A stretch of 39,571 nt of DNA from Candidatus Omnitrophota bacterium (GTDB lineage: Bacteria; Omnitrophota; Gorgyraeia; Zapsychrales; Fredricksoniimonadaceae): contig JAKFXC010000098.1 in assembly GCA_021731625.1 (NCBI GenBank), forward strand, positions 1 to 39,571, read 5' to 3'. Of this stretch, positions 183 to 39,181 are shown in pieces. Numbering within the stretch: the stretch's first letter is position 1; each line of letters begins with the position of its first letter. The notes under the pieces were generated by a model, which made no database searches, was not told where the DNA came from, and saw only the letters and a program-made list of their open reading frames with translations. Both the position numbers and the translations under genes were made by a program.

Positions 183-3100
183 ATGATCAAAAGCAGTATT
201 TCAGCCGTGATTTTATTGGCTTTCGTGACAAACACAATGCCTCTGGGCCATGCCCAGGGCATCTCGGATCTACCGGTTCCAGGGGCCATGGTCAACTTAA
301 GCCCTGCCTATGAACCGGTGCTGATCAAGGGATTAAAGGTCGACCTGCAGGACCCCTTTAACTTTGATTTTATTGTCGACACCGGCCACACCGGCTTAAG
401 CCCCGCCGACCCCTTATTAAAGGAAGAGTCCCGTAAATTAATCAAATACTTTTTGGCGGCCATCACCCTGCCGGAGAAGGATTTATGGGTCAACCTTTCT
501 CCCTATGAAAAAGACCGCATGATCCCCGAGAATCTGGGGCAGACCGAAATGGGCCGCGACTTGCTGGCTCAGGACTACATTTTGAAACAATTGACCGCTT
601 CGCTGATTTATCCAGAAAAAGAGCTGGGCAAAGCATTTTGGGACCGGGTCTACGGCAAGGCCCGGCAGGTCTACGGCAGTGCCGAGGTCCCGGTCAATAC
701 CTTTCATAAAGTCTGGATTGTGGCGGAACGGGCGGATGTGTTTGAAAAAGCGGGGGCCGCGTATGTGACTGGGGCGCATTTGAAAGTCATGATGGACGAG
801 GACTATCTGGCACTGACTAGGAACGCCACCGGCGCAATCCCCTTAAGCGCTACGGCTGCCTCCCAAGTCATGCGCCAAATTGTCCTCCCGGAAATCGAAA
901 AGGAAGTCAACTTTGGCAAGAATTTTGCGCCTTTGCGGCAGATGTTTTATGCCATGATTCTATCCAGCTGGTACAAAATGGCGCTCAAAGACAGTATCCT
1001 CAGCCAAATTTACGGCAATCAGTCCAAAGTCAAAGCCGGTGTCAACGCCCCCAATCCTGTGGAGACCGCCCAAATTTTTGAACGGTATCTTGCGGCCTAT
1101 AAAAAAGGGGTGTTTAACTATATCAAAGAAGACCTGGACAAAACTCGCCATACGCCGGTGCCTAGAAAATATTTTTCCGGCGGGGCCAATCTGGCCATGC
1201 TGGCCAAGACCCAGGTCCTGCGGCGCCAGCGGGCGGCGGGGGTGTTTCCGCAAAGCGGGCGTTTGATTTCTATCAATACGAAATTACTTTTGGCCAATGA
1301 CCTGGCCATGGCCAAGGGCTCGGATGATTTGAGCAGACTGCTGGACGACGTCCAGGCTAAGATCGCGGCCCCGCAACAAGACGAGTTAGTCACCCTGCTT
1401 GCGGATTTGAGGCAGGCCTTGGCTGCCAAGTACCCAGGCGCGGCCCGCCGGATCAACGGTTATATGGACCAAATTTATACCCTCATCGGGGAGGAGTTTG
1501 CACCATTGGTGCAGGATTTGAGGAAAAAGCTAAGGCAAGAGGGCAGTGATGCGATCGAAGAGGAATTTGATTATCTGTTTTTAGCGCAATTGGATTTTTT
1601 GCAGAACATAATAGAAAATCAAGACGCTAAGGACGTAGTGGGGATATTTCACCAAATCGCCGTGGCCATCAAGCAGGGGGTTTTTCGTGGCCGGGAATAT
1701 GATTGGGCAGATTTTTTTGACAATTTTATTGTTAATGCCCCTATGGCCCTGCTTGTTTTGTTGAATTTTGAAAGAGAAATTCCGGCAAAACAGCGTTTTT
1801 CCGGCAAAGTGGTCATGGCATTGTTGGAGGGTTCGCAAAATGAGCTTGCGTTTCGGACCCGATTAGAGAGTTACCACAGGATCCGCTTAGCACACCGGGA
1901 CTTTTCTCCAGACAACATCCTGAAGCGGGTCAATGAGATGAGCGGCCGCGAATTAAGCCGCAAGGACTACCGTCCCGTTAGTAAAATGAGAGAGCATGCG
2001 ATGATCGCCGCACCTGTGAAGGACAACCGCCATGCCGATAGCCCCACTACGAAGGGCTATTCTAGGAAGGGATCCTCGGAGGCTGGTGAAGGACCGGATG
2101 CTGACTTTGACGATGCCATGACCACGGAAGGTTTATCGAAGGAAAAAATCAAATGGCTCGAGATAGGCCAAGAATATTATCCGTCGGTGGATGTTAAGCA
2201 TGTTCTCAAGCAGGTCAATAAGGCAACCACGAATCCAGGCATTATTAATATGGAAACAGGTAGTGTTCGTGGGGGTGTGATCCCCGTGCTGGCTGTGGCG
2301 CCGGCGGCCCTTACAGAGTATGAACGCGAGATATTGACCGCGCTCGTAGAACACAGGCTGTTTCCCAAGGGACTTGACGGGTTAGTCGAAGGGTTAGTAC
2401 CGGATTTTTTTAAATTGCATATTGTCTCAACCACTCAGGGGTCTTTTTGGGTCATGTCATTTAAGAGGAGCCCTCTTTCTGAAGCTGAAGCAAGGTTATT
2501 GGAACGTAAATTTGCGGTGGTCAAGGAACGCTACCAGAAGTTGTTCCGTGCTCTTCCAGACCCGGCTATGGCGTCAGAACTCCCAGGACCCGCCGACATT
2601 CAAGCGGCGGCTTGGAAAAGGTCCATAGGGGGTTTCAGACCGTGGGCCTGGAAAAAATTCACTCAACCAGATTTTCTCGAGGCCTATATAAAAATGGTCA
2701 ATTCCAAAGCTGCGGAACTGGGGGACATCGGCAGAATTAGGCAATTAATTCATAAGATTGCTAACGATGACAACTATGGTAAATTTGGTGGCCCGGGCCG
2801 TACGCACAATTGGACGGCCTTTATGACAAAATTTAACCGACCGAGAGACTTAGAAGACGTGCTGGAAGCCATTGTCACATTTGAAACAAACCAGACGGGG
2901 CATCAGTATAGCATTGACTTTCCCGAGGTTGAGCGTATTGTCATGGACGCCGAAAATGTCACGCAAGCCATGGCCCGTCTGGCTTTGCTGAACGCTGATC
3001 TTATGGGCAATTCTCGCCAAAGGTACAGCTACGAAGCGTTCATGGACAAACACCACTTCACAGCTTCGACCGGCCGCGAACCGGCCATGATTGCCGGTGA

Positions 3101-3290
3101 ATTTGACCCCGGCGGTATTGATTTAAACCGCGCCCGCATGCAGCTTAATGTGCAGAAGCAAGGCGCCGGGGTGCCCCGCCCATTTGACCCCATCATGCTG
3201 GAAAACATGCGCAAAGACCTCAAAGGCATGGATTTCGAGATCCGCAGCATGGCTCCCGTGGTTGATTTGCCCATGTTCATGGGTGTGTGA
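183..3290 (+). CDS. Secreted lineage-specific large protein of unknown function (Omnitrophota-type), paralog of 33515-36263
   Basis: 1035-aa ORF; N-terminal hydrophobic signal peptide (MIKSSISAVILLAFVTNTMPLGHAQG); block LSPAYEPVLIKGLKVDLQDPFNFDFIVDTGHTGL...KLIKYFLAAITLPEKDLWVNLSPYEKDR..GQTEMGRDLLAQDYILKQLTASLIYPE; C-terminal EFDPGGIDLNRARMQLNVQ motif; aligns by eye with the second copy in the window. Confidence 0.85.
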   Translation: MIKSSISAVILLAFVTNTMPLGHAQGISDLPVPGAMVNLSPAYEPVLIKGLKVDLQDPFNFDFIVDTGHTGLSPADPLLKEESRKLIKYFLAAITLPEKDLWVNLSPYEKDRMIPENLGQTEMGRDLLAQDYILKQLTASLIYPEKELGKAFWDRVYGKARQVYGSAEVPVNTFHKVWIVAERADVFEKAGAAYVTGAHLKVMMDEDYLALTRNATGAIPLSATAASQVMRQIVLPEIEKEVNFGKNFAPLRQMFYAMILSSWYKMALKDSILSQIYGNQSKVKAGVNAPNPVETAQIFERYLAAYKKGVFNYIKEDLDKTRHTPVPRKYFSGGANLAMLAKTQVLRRQRAAGVFPQSGRLISINTKLLLANDLAMAKGSDDLSRLLDDVQAKIAAPQQDELVTLLADLRQALAAKYPGAARRINGYMDQIYTLIGEEFAPLVQDLRKKLRQEGSDAIEEEFDYLFLAQLDFLQNIIENQDAKDVVGIFHQIAVAIKQGVFRGREYDWADFFDNFIVNAPMALLVLLNFEREIPAKQRFSGKVVMALLEGSQNELAFRTRLESYHRIRLAHRDFSPDNILKRVNEMSGRELSRKDYRPVSKMREHAMIAAPVKDNRHADSPTTKGYSRKGSSEAGEGPDADFDDAMTTEGLSKEKIKWLEIGQEYYPSVDVKHVLKQVNKATTNPGIINMETGSVRGGVIPVLAVAPAALTEYEREILTALVEHRLFPKGLDGLVEGLVPDFFKLHIVSTTQGSFWVMSFKRSPLSEAEARLLERKFAVVKERYQKLFRALPDPAMASELPGPADIQAAAWKRSIGGFRPWAWKKFTQPDFLEAYIKMVNSKAAELGDIGRIRQLIHKIANDDNYGKFGGPGRTHNWTAFMTKFNRPRDLEDVLEAIVTFETNQTGHQYSIDFPEVERIVMDAENVTQAMARLALLNADLMGNSRQRYSYEAFMDKHHFTASTGREPAMIAGEFDPGGIDLNRARMQLNVQKQGAGVPRPFDPIMLENMRKDLKGMDFEIRSMAPVVDLPMFMGV

Positions 3291-33514: not shown

Positions 33515-36263
33515 ATGTTTAAACTCATCAAATTCCTGCTGGCGCTGGTTTTTCTATTTAACGGCCTACCCTGGTTTACGGCCCAGGCCCAAGGGATTGT
33601 GCTGCCCTCCCCAGGTGTTCGATTTGAATTAACCAAACCCTACATGCCGGTCATGGTCAAAGGCCTGATCGTTGATCCCAAAGAACCGCTCAAATTCGAA
33701 TTTTTGATCGATTCCGGCGACACGGGCCTGAAGGGCGAGGCCCTAAAACCCGAATCCATGAAATTGATGAAGTATTTCTTGGCGGCCATGACCATACCCG
33801 ACGAGGAGATGTGGGTCAATCTGTTGCCTTACGAAAAAGACCGCATCATTGCCAAAAGTTTCGGTGAAACGGAAATGGGCCGCGATTTGCTGGCCCAGGA
33901 TTATGTCCTCAAGCAATTGGTTGCTTCATTGACGTATCCGGAGGGGGAAATGGGTAAAAAATTTTGGGACCGGGTGGGCATGGTTCCCGTCAATACGTTT
34001 AATAAAGTTTGGATCGTACCGTCTAAAGCCGAGATTTTTGAAAATAGCAAGGGTGCTTTTGTGATGGACGCACACATGAAAGTGATGCTAGATGAAGATT
34101 ACCTGGCGTTTACTAACAACAACAAAACGTCCCCGAAGGGGACCACCAATACCAAGGCCCAACATACCACGGCCTCCGACATGGTACGCCAGCTGATTGT
34201 CCCGGCCATTGAAAAGGAAGTCAACGAAGGCGAACATTTTGCCAATTTACGGCAGATTTACCAGGCCATGATTTTGGCCACCTGGTATAAGATCCGATTA
34301 AAAGAAAGTATACTGGGAAAGTTTTATGTGGACCGTCATAAAACCAGAGGTGTGGCAGTCGCGGACAGTGGGGGGAATGAGCGGATTTATCAGCAGTATC
34401 TAGCAGCCTTCAAAAGAGGAGCTTATAACTATATTAGGGAAGAGGTCGATCCCTTGACCAACGCAATGATTCCTCGTAAATATATTTCCGGCGGTTTTGA
34501 TTCAGCCCTACTGGCCAAAGTTGTCAATGCAGGATTAAAAAAAGGAGACCCGGTCTTGACTCCGCATGGGGACCTGGCCATGGTGAAGGCGGAAGCCCGT
34601 GCCAATCACCCACATGAGGATGCGGTCAAGGCGCTTTATGAATCGGTCCGCACATATGAACGCAAACTTTTAAAACGGTGGAGAATGCATCAATTCGAAG
34701 TGTTTTATTATCCCGCCCTTGGAGTTTATGAAAAAAGATTAAGTGAACAACAGCTTTGGGTTTTAGAATCCGTTCGTTTAGCCCAGGCACGTTTAGACGG
34801 TTTGGTGGCGGATTTCGTGTTCTTTAAGGACGGCCATGAATGGGTAATGCTGCAGACAGCGGTGGAACCGCTTGACCGCGTGTTAAAGAAAGAGAAACAT
34901 GCCGCGGTCGTCGACGATCTCTTGGAACAAGTGCTTGAATTAAATACCCGCATGATCAGCCGCGGGGTCCTGCATTGGGACAATCGCATGAGCAATTATG
35001 GCGTCATCGATGGAGAAGACGGTAAGAGAAAAGTGGTTCTCCTGGATCTTGGTGGTTTATTTGACCTGCATGGGGACAATGCGCATTCGTCCTTGCGATG
35101 GGAGAGCATCACGTTTAAACGATTATTGGGGCATAGGGGTACGCCTTGGACTTAAAAAACAATTTAGAGACAAATCCGTTGCCCACGGGTTTGCCCATAC
35201 GTCATCGTATTTTTTATTTAAACGGCACCGCAGGGAAGTTATGGAGAAGACCGTTTTGCGTATTGTGAGCTTAGCAAGGGAAAATTATCAGCCGCTCAAT
35301 CCTCAAAAGTCTGCCGCGCACATCGCAGAACGGATCAAAGATTTTGGGCGTGGGCATGATTTGCGTGAACGCTTTGCCCAAAGCAGCGATGGGGCCATGT
35401 GGTCCGCAGAATGGAACCGGGTGCTATCAGGACCTCACCGTTTTTTTCTCTCTGATGTAGTGCGCGTGGAGCAAGGTTCAGCAGAGATGATAAAATTTGT
35501 GGAAAAATATGTCCACAATCCCTCGATGTTTTACGCATCGATCTATAGCTTACAGCCGGGCCAGCCGATGCCCAGGACGAAATTGTCTGAGGGTTTTTTT
35601 AAATTACTTAAGAAATACAAATTGGTTGACGACCACATGGTTTTATCGGAGCAAGCCAGGCATCTCATGCAAGCATTTATTCAAAAAAAGCAGACAACAT
35701 ACGCTTTTAGGCCGATTAGAGTGACGATAGCCGATGGGGTAAAAGTCAGCCCCTTGGTTCTGTTAAAAGCCATAAATAAATTCGGCCGGCTCACTGAGAT
35801 CGAATTGCAAATGCGGGTCTCTCAGATACGCGCTATTGAAAACCCCTTTCAATATAAACATGCGGAAAACAGAGGGCTGCAACGGTTTATTGAGGGGGAC
35901 TACAAGGCCTTTCAAGATTTTCAAAAAATTGTGGCAGTGACCATACGAGAAACATCCGAAGGAGGAGTGTCCTCCTATAAATTTGTTGAGCCAAAAATCA
36001 CTGTTGACGAGGACCTAGCGATGCAGCGGCTCATGGCGCGCGCCCCCGACAACACCGGCGGTATCGATTTAGACGCCGGCAACCTGGAGCTCCAGATCAA
36101 GCGGGACGGCCGGGGCATGCCTTTGCCTGCCAAGCATCAGGATCTGGCCCAGAGGAGCATTGACGCCCTTTACCCGACGATCTTGACGATTACCCCCATC
36201 ACGCACCCGGAGGATGTTTTAGGCCACAATAGCTCTTTACATTCCCCGGGCCGATCGTTATAA
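33515..36263 (+). pseudogene. Second secreted lineage-specific large protein; coding region split by a one-base frameshift near 35128-35150 (33515-35155 plus frame-3 continuation within 34998-36263)
   Basis: Signal peptide MFKLIKFLLALVFLFNGLPWFTAQAQG; N-terminal block matches 183-3290; C-terminal GGIDLDAGNLELQIKRDGRGMPLP in the shifted frame; removing one G from 35128-35131 gives continuous ...FKRLLGIGVRLGLKKQFRDK... May be an assembly error rather than a pseudogene. Confidence 0.75.
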
Positions 36264-36272: not shown

Positions 36273-37148
36273 ATGAAAAAGCTAAAACTAGGTTTTCCTA
36301 AGGGAAGTCTACAGGAAGCCACTGTCGGCCTGTTTGCCAGGGCTGGCTTTAAGGTGACGATCTCCTCGCGTTCGTATTTCCCGCAAATTGACGACGATGA
36401 AATTGAACCGGTGCTCCTGCGGGCCCAGGAAATGTCCCGCTATGTCCAGGACAACACCTTAGACTGCGGCATCACCGGCAACGACTGGATCCTGGAAAAT
36501 TCTTCCGATGTGGTGCGCCTGGCCGAACTTTTATATGCCAAACAAACCGCCAGCAAAGTGCGCTGGGTGCTGGCCGCCCCTGAGGGCTCGACCATTAAGT
36601 CTGTCAAAGACCTGGAGGGCAAGAAAATAGCGACGGAACTCGTCAGCGTGACCCGGCAATATTTGGCCAAGCATAAAGTCAAAGCGGACGTGGAGTTTTC
36701 CTGGGGCGCCACGGAAGCCAAAGTGGCCACAGGTTTGGTGGACGCCATTGTCGAGTTGACCGAGACCGGATCGTCGCTGCGGGCCAATAAATTGCGCATC
36801 GTCGACACCTTGTGCGAGTCAACCACCCAGTTTATCGCCGGGAAAGCTGCTGCCAAAGACCCCTGGAAGAAGAAGAAAATGGAGCAGGTGATCTTGCTCC
36901 TGAAAGGTGCGCTCGCCGCCAATAATATGGTGGGCCTTAAGATGAACGTCAGCCGCAAGAACCTGGATAAGATCCTCAAGGTCCTCACCGCCTTGCGCAA
37001 CCCAACGATATCGCCGCTCTCGACCGACGGATGGGTGGCCCTGGAGACCGTCATCGACGAGGGCACGGTCCGGGTCATCATCCCGCAGCTTAAGGAAGCC
37101 GGGGCGGAAGGCATTATCGAGTATTCCCTCAATAAATTGATTTATTAG
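36273..37148 (+). CDS. hisG: ATP phosphoribosyltransferase (with C-terminal regulatory-type domain)
   Basis: [54 protein letters not shown]. Confidence 0.93.
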
Positions 37149-37184: not shown

Positions 37185-37213
37185 GTATGTTACACTACTA
37201 AGTAAGGACATGT

Positions 37214-37315
37214 ATGCCCTGCGGACGAAAAAGAAAATTGCGCAAAATACGCACGCACAAACGCAAGAAATTGCGTAAAGCCTTGCGTCATTTGAAAAAA
37301 CGCGCCACTCGCTAG
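37214..37315 (+). CDS. 33-aa highly basic protein, AURKAIP1/COX24 (bL38)-like small ribosomal protein candidate
   Basis: MPCGRKRKLRKIRTHKRKKLRKALRHLKKRATR*; AAGGA SD at 37204-37208; not in the supplied ORF track because of its length. Confidence 0.75.
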   Translation: MPCGRKRKLRKIRTHKRKKLRKALRHLKKRATR

Positions 37316-37331: not shown

Positions 37332-38315
37332 ATGTGGAAGTTGCTCATCGGCACCCTTGCTTTCGGTTATGCCTGCGCATCGGGTGTCTATGCCGGAGAT
37401 ACCGAAACGGAATTTAAGGCCAAGGCGTTGGCCCATTACATTATGGGAGTGACGTATGACCTCAATGGCCAGACCGACGAGGCCATCAGCGAATACGAGC
37501 AAAGCGCCCAGATGGACAACACTCAGCCGCTCCCGCATTTGCGCCTTGCCACCTATCATGCCCGCACCGGCGGGCTGGCAAAATCAATCCAGCAGTTAAA
37601 TATGGTGTTGGCCTTGGAGCCGCAGAACGCCCAGGCCCGGTACTTGCTGGCCCTCATTTATTCCGCCCAAAAAAAATACGACCAAGCCGCTTCCGAATAC
37701 GAAAGTATTTTAAAGAACGTCTCCCAGGACAATCCCGGCAATCTTGAAATTTATACCTACCTGGCCCAATTGTATTATTCGCAAGGCAAATACAAACAGG
37801 CCATCGAGCAATTCCAGCGCATTTTAAGTATTGACCCCGACAACATCTCGGCCAATTATTTATTGGGCACTGCCTGTTTGGAAACCCAGCAGCGCCCCAA
37901 GGCCATGCAGCTTTTTAAAGAAGTATTGCGCCTGCAGCCCGACAACGACGAGGCGCTTAACTCGCTCGCTTACATGTATGCGGAAGACGAGGTCAATCTC
38001 GACGAGGGTTTAAGAATGGCCCGCAAAGCCGTGGACCTCGACCCTTCCAATGGGGCTTATTTTGATACGCTGGGATGGCTGCTGTTTAAGAAGGGCATGA
38101 ATTCCGAGGCCCTGCTGTCTTTTCAAAAAGCGGAAATGTACGTCCACGATTCCGTTGTGTATGAACATATGGGCGATGTGTACTACGCCATTAAGGAATT
38201 TGTCCTGGCCCGCAAATACTGGCGCAAGTCGCTGGACCTGCAACCCCATCAGCCGCAAGTCAAGGCTAAACTCGAAGAGCTGGAGAAGCTCCAAGCATTT
38301 AGAAAACCAGACTAG
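37332..38315 (+). CDS. Secreted TPR-repeat protein
   Basis: Signal peptide; multiple TPRs (YDQAASEYESILKNV, YKQAIEQFQRILSIDPDNISANYLLG); strong SD AGGAGG. Confidence 0.92.
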   Translation: MWKLLIGTLAFGYACASGVYAGDTETEFKAKALAHYIMGVTYDLNGQTDEAISEYEQSAQMDNTQPLPHLRLATYHARTGGLAKSIQQLNMVLALEPQNAQARYLLALIYSAQKKYDQAASEYESILKNVSQDNPGNLEIYTYLAQLYYSQGKYKQAIEQFQRILSIDPDNISANYLLGTACLETQQRPKAMQLFKEVLRLQPDNDEALNSLAYMYAEDEVNLDEGLRMARKAVDLDPSNGAYFDTLGWLLFKKGMNSEALLSFQKAEMYVHDSVVYEHMGDVYYAIKEFVLARKYWRKSLDLQPHQPQVKAKLEELEKLQAFRKPD

Positions 38316-38323
38316 TTCCCTTC

Positions 38324-39181
38324 ATGAAAAAGCTTTGCCTGCGTTCCCCCGCGAAGTTAAATCTGGCTTTGGATGTTTTGGCCAAACGCAGTGATGGGTA
38401 TCATGAACTTAAGACTGTTTTTGAGCGCATTGACCTTTGCGACCGCATCACCCTGTGGCCCCGCGCCGATGGTTTGGTCAAGGTTATCTGCTCCCACCCG
38501 CAGGTGCCCAAAGGTCCGGCCAATTTGGCAGCCAAGGCAGCCATGTTGCTTAAGCAAGACCTAAATCTGGCCCAGGGCCTTAATATCCACATTGAGAAAA
38601 AGATTCCCGTGGCCGCCGGCTTGGCGGGGGGCTCCAGCAATGCCGCCACCGTTTTGCTGGGGCTTAACCGCTTGTGGAAATTGAGGCTATCGCAAAAACA
38701 ATTGCGCGATTACGCCGGCCGTTTGGGCTCGGATGTGACTTTTTTTATTTACGATGTTTCTTATGCTGTGGGGGAGGGCCGGGGGGAGAAAATCCGACCC
38801 TTGCCGATACCTACCAAATTGTGGCATCTGCTTGTTACTCCTAGGGTTAAGATGCTCACCAAAGACGTATTCGGCCGCTTGAATTTAGATTTGACAAATA
38901 AAATGGATAGTGTTAATATTTTGCTTCCTTATTTAAGGAAGAGTGTGCCTTCCGCCATCGGCCCCAAGTTGGCCAATGGTTTGGAGCCGGCAATTTTGTC
39001 TTTACGGCCGGATTTTGCGCGTTTAAAAAAGAAAATGTCCGACGCTGGCGCTTGCGGCGTGTGTTTTTCCGGCAGCGGGCCTTCCGTTTTTGCTTTAGCG
39101 CGTTCTAAGCAGCACGCCGGGCAAATGAAAGCGCGCCTTGATCGCCGCTTTGCGCAGGTAAAAATCGTTTCGACACTGTGA
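38324..39181 (+). CDS. ispE: 4-diphosphocytidyl-2-C-methyl-D-erythritol kinase
   Basis: SPAKLNLALDVLAKRSDGYHEL, PVAAGLAGGSSNAATVLLGLN, FSGSGPSVFAL. Confidence 0.95.
   Translation: MKKLCLRSPAKLNLALDVLAKRSDGYHELKTVFERIDLCDRITLWPRADGLVKVICSHPQVPKGPANLAAKAAMLLKQDLNLAQGLNIHIEKKIPVAAGLAGGSSNAATVLLGLNRLWKLRLSQKQLRDYAGRLGSDVTFFIYDVSYAVGEGRGEKIRPLPIPTKLWHLLVTPRVKMLTKDVFGRLNLDLTNKMDSVNILLPYLRKSVPSAIGPKLANGLEPAILSLRPDFARLKKKMSDAGACGVCFSGSGPSVFALARSKQHAGQMKARLDRRFAQVKIVSTL

Follow-up and report, generated by a model that had tools for sequence, protein, structure and literature searches.

The short open reading frame (ORF) that lies between hisG and a TPR-repeat gene in the window (the whole analysed stretch of 39,571 nucleotides, from a Candidatus Omnitrophota bacterium) very probably encodes bS22, a highly basic 33-residue helix of the small ribosomal subunit, whose place and role in the ribosome we assign by homology. 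The frame runs from ATG to TAG and translates as MPCGRKRKLRKIRTHKRKKLRKALRHLKKRATR, followed by the stop, with 18 Lys or Arg among its 33 residues. The first-pass annotation, made from the letters alone, had singled it out as an Arg/Lys-rich ORF with a good Shine-Dalgarno (SD) sequence in the hisG-TPR intergenic gap, and the locus bears this out: the ATG lies 65 nt past the hisG stop, 16 nt separate the end of the ORF from the TPR gene, AAGGA stands 5 nt upstream of the ATG, and the 16S rRNA of the same genome, for which one gene was detected, carries a normal anti-SD tail, GGATCACCTCCTTT (Table 1). A promoter scan found no sigma-70 promoter belonging to bS22 itself. In many relatives the hisG stop falls within about 20 nt of the bS22 start, which makes a single hisG-bS22-TPR transcript probable, and it is probably from this transcript that bS22 is translated.

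Table 1. The bS22 gene and its surroundings in the window.
Feature	Position	Strand	Evidence
bS22 (mS38/AURKAIP1-COX24-like) ribosomal protein gene, 33 aa (very probable)	37214..37315	+	homology, selection, synteny, shuffle control
Shine-Dalgarno AAGGA of the bS22 gene	37204..37208	+	core of at least 4 SD bases at -18 to -4 in 59/69 loci
hisG (ATP phosphoribosyltransferase), conserved upstream neighbour	36273..37148	+	Pfam HisG 150.6 bits, also HisG_C; 61/62 loci
TPR-repeat protein gene (signal-like segment at the N-terminus of the product), conserved downstream neighbour	37332..38315	+	Pfam TPR; 59/62 loci
GHMP kinase (ispE-like), next gene, same direction	38324..39181	+	Pfam GHMP_kinases N and C

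The ORF is a real gene, under strong purifying selection and in conserved gene order. It was present in 49 of 56 relatives, the 49 clear matches being 73-100% identical and free of internal stops, and the protein measured 32-36 aa across 62 distinct copies from the same phylum. Among 69 loci the start codon was ATG in 68 and GTG in one, and the SD core was retained in 59. With the window copy as reference, the mean pS of 0.90 was saturated, against a mean pN of 0.12 that is low partly by construction, because the loci were retrieved by protein similarity; differences from the same copy at codon positions 1, 2 and 3 numbered 436, 140 and 976, respectively. The proteins of two relatives (L002 and L003) are identical to that of the window copy, their genes differing from it at 18 and 14 synonymous positions. 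The order hisG, ORF, TPR gene was likewise kept, in that hisG directly precedes the ORF at 61 of 62 loci and the TPR gene follows it at 59 of 62, the exceptions being mostly contig ends. Saturated third positions, fixed length and gene order are not something that retrieval through protein similarity could produce. The substitution pattern is that of coding and not of non-coding sequence, and the conservation of the ORF at its syntenic position, and of its start and SD, on which the first-pass annotation had made its proposal depend, is present. A frame of only 102 nt, with a biased composition that could mislead profile scores, might be suspected of having opened by chance, or of being an artefact of overlap where hisG and the TPR gene meet; yet the protein is nearly frozen while its synonymous sites are saturated, start, stop and SD are conserved, the ORF occurs across nearly the whole phylum and the shuffle control given below is beaten, all of which leaves such an origin practically no probability.

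The identity of the protein is drawn from chains seen in solved ribosomes. Searching the PDB with phmmer returned three matches, all of the bS22 family: Borrelia burgdorferi bS22 (8fmw_V, E=1.9e-6), a Flavobacterium johnsoniae chain (7jil_5, E=7.4e-4) and 9i5v_10, named 'AURKAIP1/COX24 domain-containing protein' (E=0.043). Against a profile of these three solved chains, the window protein scored 41.2 bits, the best of 20,000 shuffled versions of it 15.2, and its identity to Borrelia bS22 was 21/28 against 15 for the best shuffle. The match thus goes beyond what a basic composition by itself would give, although such composition inflates similarity scores and the shuffle control limits rather than removes this effect. 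The residues M1, P2, G4, K6, R7, K8, K11, T14-K19 and R25 are invariant with respect to the copies of Spirochaetota, Neomarinimicrobiota and Bacteroidota. AlphaFold2 predicts a single helix over residues 5-32 (pLDDT 92.8). The features that characterize bS22 are found together here, namely homology to a chain of a solved ribosome, a length of about 30-33 aa with more than half Lys and Arg, a predicted single helix and a conserved coding gene.

Concerning the name, the first-pass annotation had placed the protein in a bL38/AURKAIP1-COX24 family, from which the kinship with AURKAIP1, COX24 and mS38 stands and the name bL38 has to be given up, since the protein matches bS22. In the Borrelia ribosome, bS22 and bL38 are separate and previously unannotated proteins: the former belongs to the 30S subunit, in a pocket of 16S h2/h27/h44/h45 with a contact to 23S H68, and is analogous to mS38 and eL41, whereas the latter (bb0162, with beta strands) belongs to the 50S subunit next to the sarcin-ricin loop (PMC10618245). 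Small extra proteins revealed by cryo-EM of the same ribosomes, as is bL38 in both Flavobacterium and Borrelia, the two nevertheless differ in location and structure (PMC10618245). The PDB molecule names for the matching Flavobacterium sequence do include '50S ribosomal protein L38', and the presence of both names on that chain may explain the mix-up; however, the Borrelia bS22 matched here is distinct from bb0162 (PMC10618245), and the window protein is predicted to be all-helical, as a single helix, and not to form the beta strands of the 50S protein, so that its being bL38 is extremely unlikely. We consider it also improbable, if less so, that the ORF specifies a conserved basic peptide outside the ribosome, for example an arrest or leader peptide by which the TPR gene is controlled, or a free peptide with antimicrobial or nucleic-acid-binding activity. 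In favour of this are the fixed position just upstream of the TPR gene and the inhibition of bacterial growth and cell-free translation by added C. acnes bS22 peptide (PMC10085706). Against it stands the agreement, residue by residue, with bS22 chains of solved ribosomes; moreover, the loci in Spirochaetota, Bacteroidota and Neomarinimicrobiota have no adjacent HisG/TPR match, which means that the bS22 sequence also occurs independently of the TPR gene.

Existing profile models are a poor guide to this family. The match of the window protein to Pfam COX24_C (PF08213), which the first-pass annotation had pointed to, exists and is weak, spanning profile positions 6-31 (26 of 33 positions) with 10.8 bits, below the gathering cut-off of 23. 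The same Pfam model gave no hit over the whole of the own genome and none against the verified bS22 of Borrelia and Flavobacterium, and no NCBIfam model reaches either of these or the window protein. We therefore rejected Pfam and NCBIfam as a membership test, which is uninformative where ribosome-verified bS22 proteins fail it too; what the failed cut-off shows is that this branch lies outside the models' reach. The profile built here finds bS22 where Pfam and NCBIfam do not.

Within the phylum, bS22 is nearly universal. The single-sequence search was positive in 91 of 144 genomes and the seven-row profile A2 in 173 of 190 phylum members of at least 90% completeness. Eight of the 17 profile misses belong to one family (f38), in which a divergent bS22 comes just after hisG, e.g., MPWARKQRKKKMNKHKRKKKLRKHRHKKKDWS; in these copies (L164, L166-L174), directly following hisG, the N-terminus MPWA[RHK]KQR[KR][KR]KMNKHKRKKK replaces MPCGRKRK. 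Loss of bS22 was considered and rejected for this family, as the eight misses carry the divergent syntenic copy. It was likewise set aside for some other missing genomes, where a missing locus is likelier: in three profile misses (G012, G076 and G135) HisG and the IspE-like gene are absent too, so that the assembly probably lacks the whole region. The IspE-like match of G033 and of G119 starts at a contig edge, and G119 has fragments at contig edges. In G058 (L175) and G267 (L165) hisG is present, with no recognisable bS22 beside it; the gene may have been lost or relocated there, or may have diverged further. One genome (G064) holds two tandem copies, at C7:53625-53714 and 53864-53953, 239 bases apart.

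Outside Omnitrophota, 37 of 41 Neomarinimicrobiota genomes contained bS22, and a scan of named genomes had Spirochaetota, Bacteroidota, Neomarinimicrobiota and others among the matches listed. No viral contig carrying bS22 was found in IMG/VR. One sequence labelled as a SAR202 cluster bacterium (L105) has a bS22 matching a Flavobacterium sequence over 30 residues, and its contig is probably misbinned. The suggestion that a family member exists outside Bacteroidota has thus proved right, in the form of phylum-wide copies matching solved bS22 chains. That it was an overlooked component can be kept in part. Pfam and NCBIfam miss the window protein, so that 'overlooked in this lineage' is plausible; bS22 itself had been described before, in Bacteroidota, in Actinobacteria (PMC6133939, PMC10085706) and in the spirochaete Borrelia (PMC10618245). 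A literature search, with subscription papers mostly outside its range, found no report of bS22 in Omnitrophota. What is new here is the phylum-wide occurrence, not the protein.

The closest solved relative, Borrelia burgdorferi bS22 (8fmw chain V; bb0822), which was likewise unannotated at first (PMC10618245), is of the same length class and shares the N-terminus MPCGRKRKL.KI.THKRKK. The two ends diverge at the C-terminus, which reads ALRHLKKRATR in the window protein and KNRHKKKNK in a Borreliella copy (L070). The start codons differ as well, ATG here and GTG in Borrelia, and the Borrelia gene, unlike that of the window, does not adjoin hisG and the TPR gene. Among the spirochaete loci (L070, L074, L089-L091, L108, L109 and L131) several have GTG starts behind a strong SD, as reported for Borrelia. 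With Flavobacterium johnsoniae and relatives (7jil_5, 9i5v_10) identity is 18/30 around a common core MP.GKKRK..K..THKRKK, and position 3, Cys in the window protein, is occupied by Ser or Asn in the Bacteroidota chains of known structure. No obvious SD precedes the gene at the Flavobacteriia loci sampled, in contrast to this Omnitrophota lineage. Actinobacterial bS22 (M. smegmatis, C. acnes) is also a very basic helix of about 33 aa, described in the same 30S pocket (PMC10085706, PMC6133939), but is so divergent that profile A2 finds no actinobacterial PDB chain at E<=10. Mitochondrial mS38 (AURKAIP1/Cox24), the protein behind the weak Pfam match, holds an analogous position in the ribosome (PMC10618245, PMC6582356) and is longer.

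In the known structures, the basic bS22 helix lies buried below the decoding centre, where it contacts h44 and h45 and makes an additional contact with the large subunit (PMC10618245, PMC10085706; for the genetics of yeast mS38, PMC6582356). By homology, the protein described here would most likely lie below the decoding centre, in the 16S pocket that h2, h27, h44 and h45 make up, where it may touch 23S H67/H68, and so provide an extra bridge between the subunits, and may steady the top of h44. In the own-genome 16S, identity to E. coli is 11/12 and 8/9 in the h2 region, 25/28 in h27, and 19/22 and 22/25 at the top of h44, with h45 also close to E. coli. This conserved pocket would allow the binding of bS22, which we infer for the phylum, although pocket conservation is not specific evidence, as E. 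coli keeps the same pocket without bS22.

With this finding, the ribosomal inventory of an uncultured phylum gains one more protein. Taken with the 37 of 41 Neomarinimicrobiota genomes, the phylum-wide presence suggests that the few solved ribosomes give far too narrow a picture of where bS22 occurs. This wider range matters for the question of where mitochondrial mS38 came from and for models of how the decoding centre is kept stable. We tentatively propose, giving it slightly less than an even chance, that bS22 of the MPxGxKRK..THKRKK type is ancient and near-universal in several phyla (Omnitrophota, Neomarinimicrobiota, Spirochaetota, Bacteroidota), that it has been missed on account of its size and of the reach of the models, and that its tie to hisG in the present lineage possibly couples its supply to that operon. 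The idea has been raised that bS22 is linked to lineages that avoid SD initiation or have many leaderless mRNAs (PMC6582356). Given the normal anti-SD and the SD before bS22 in this genome, the protein does not seem to be restricted to such lineages.

Elsewhere in the window, two large, secreted-looking paralogues (183-3290 and 33515-35155, both on the + strand) share 50% identity over 346 aa, and neither has a Pfam match. We presume, as a lead and not as a result, that this family resembles proteins of Omnitrophota, and it may be typical of the lineage. An open frame of 421 aa (34998-36263, +) overlaps, in a different reading frame, the end of the second paralogue gene, and shows a weak resemblance to the C-terminal portion of the first paralogue. 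This points to a frameshift, either in the second copy itself or in the assembly.
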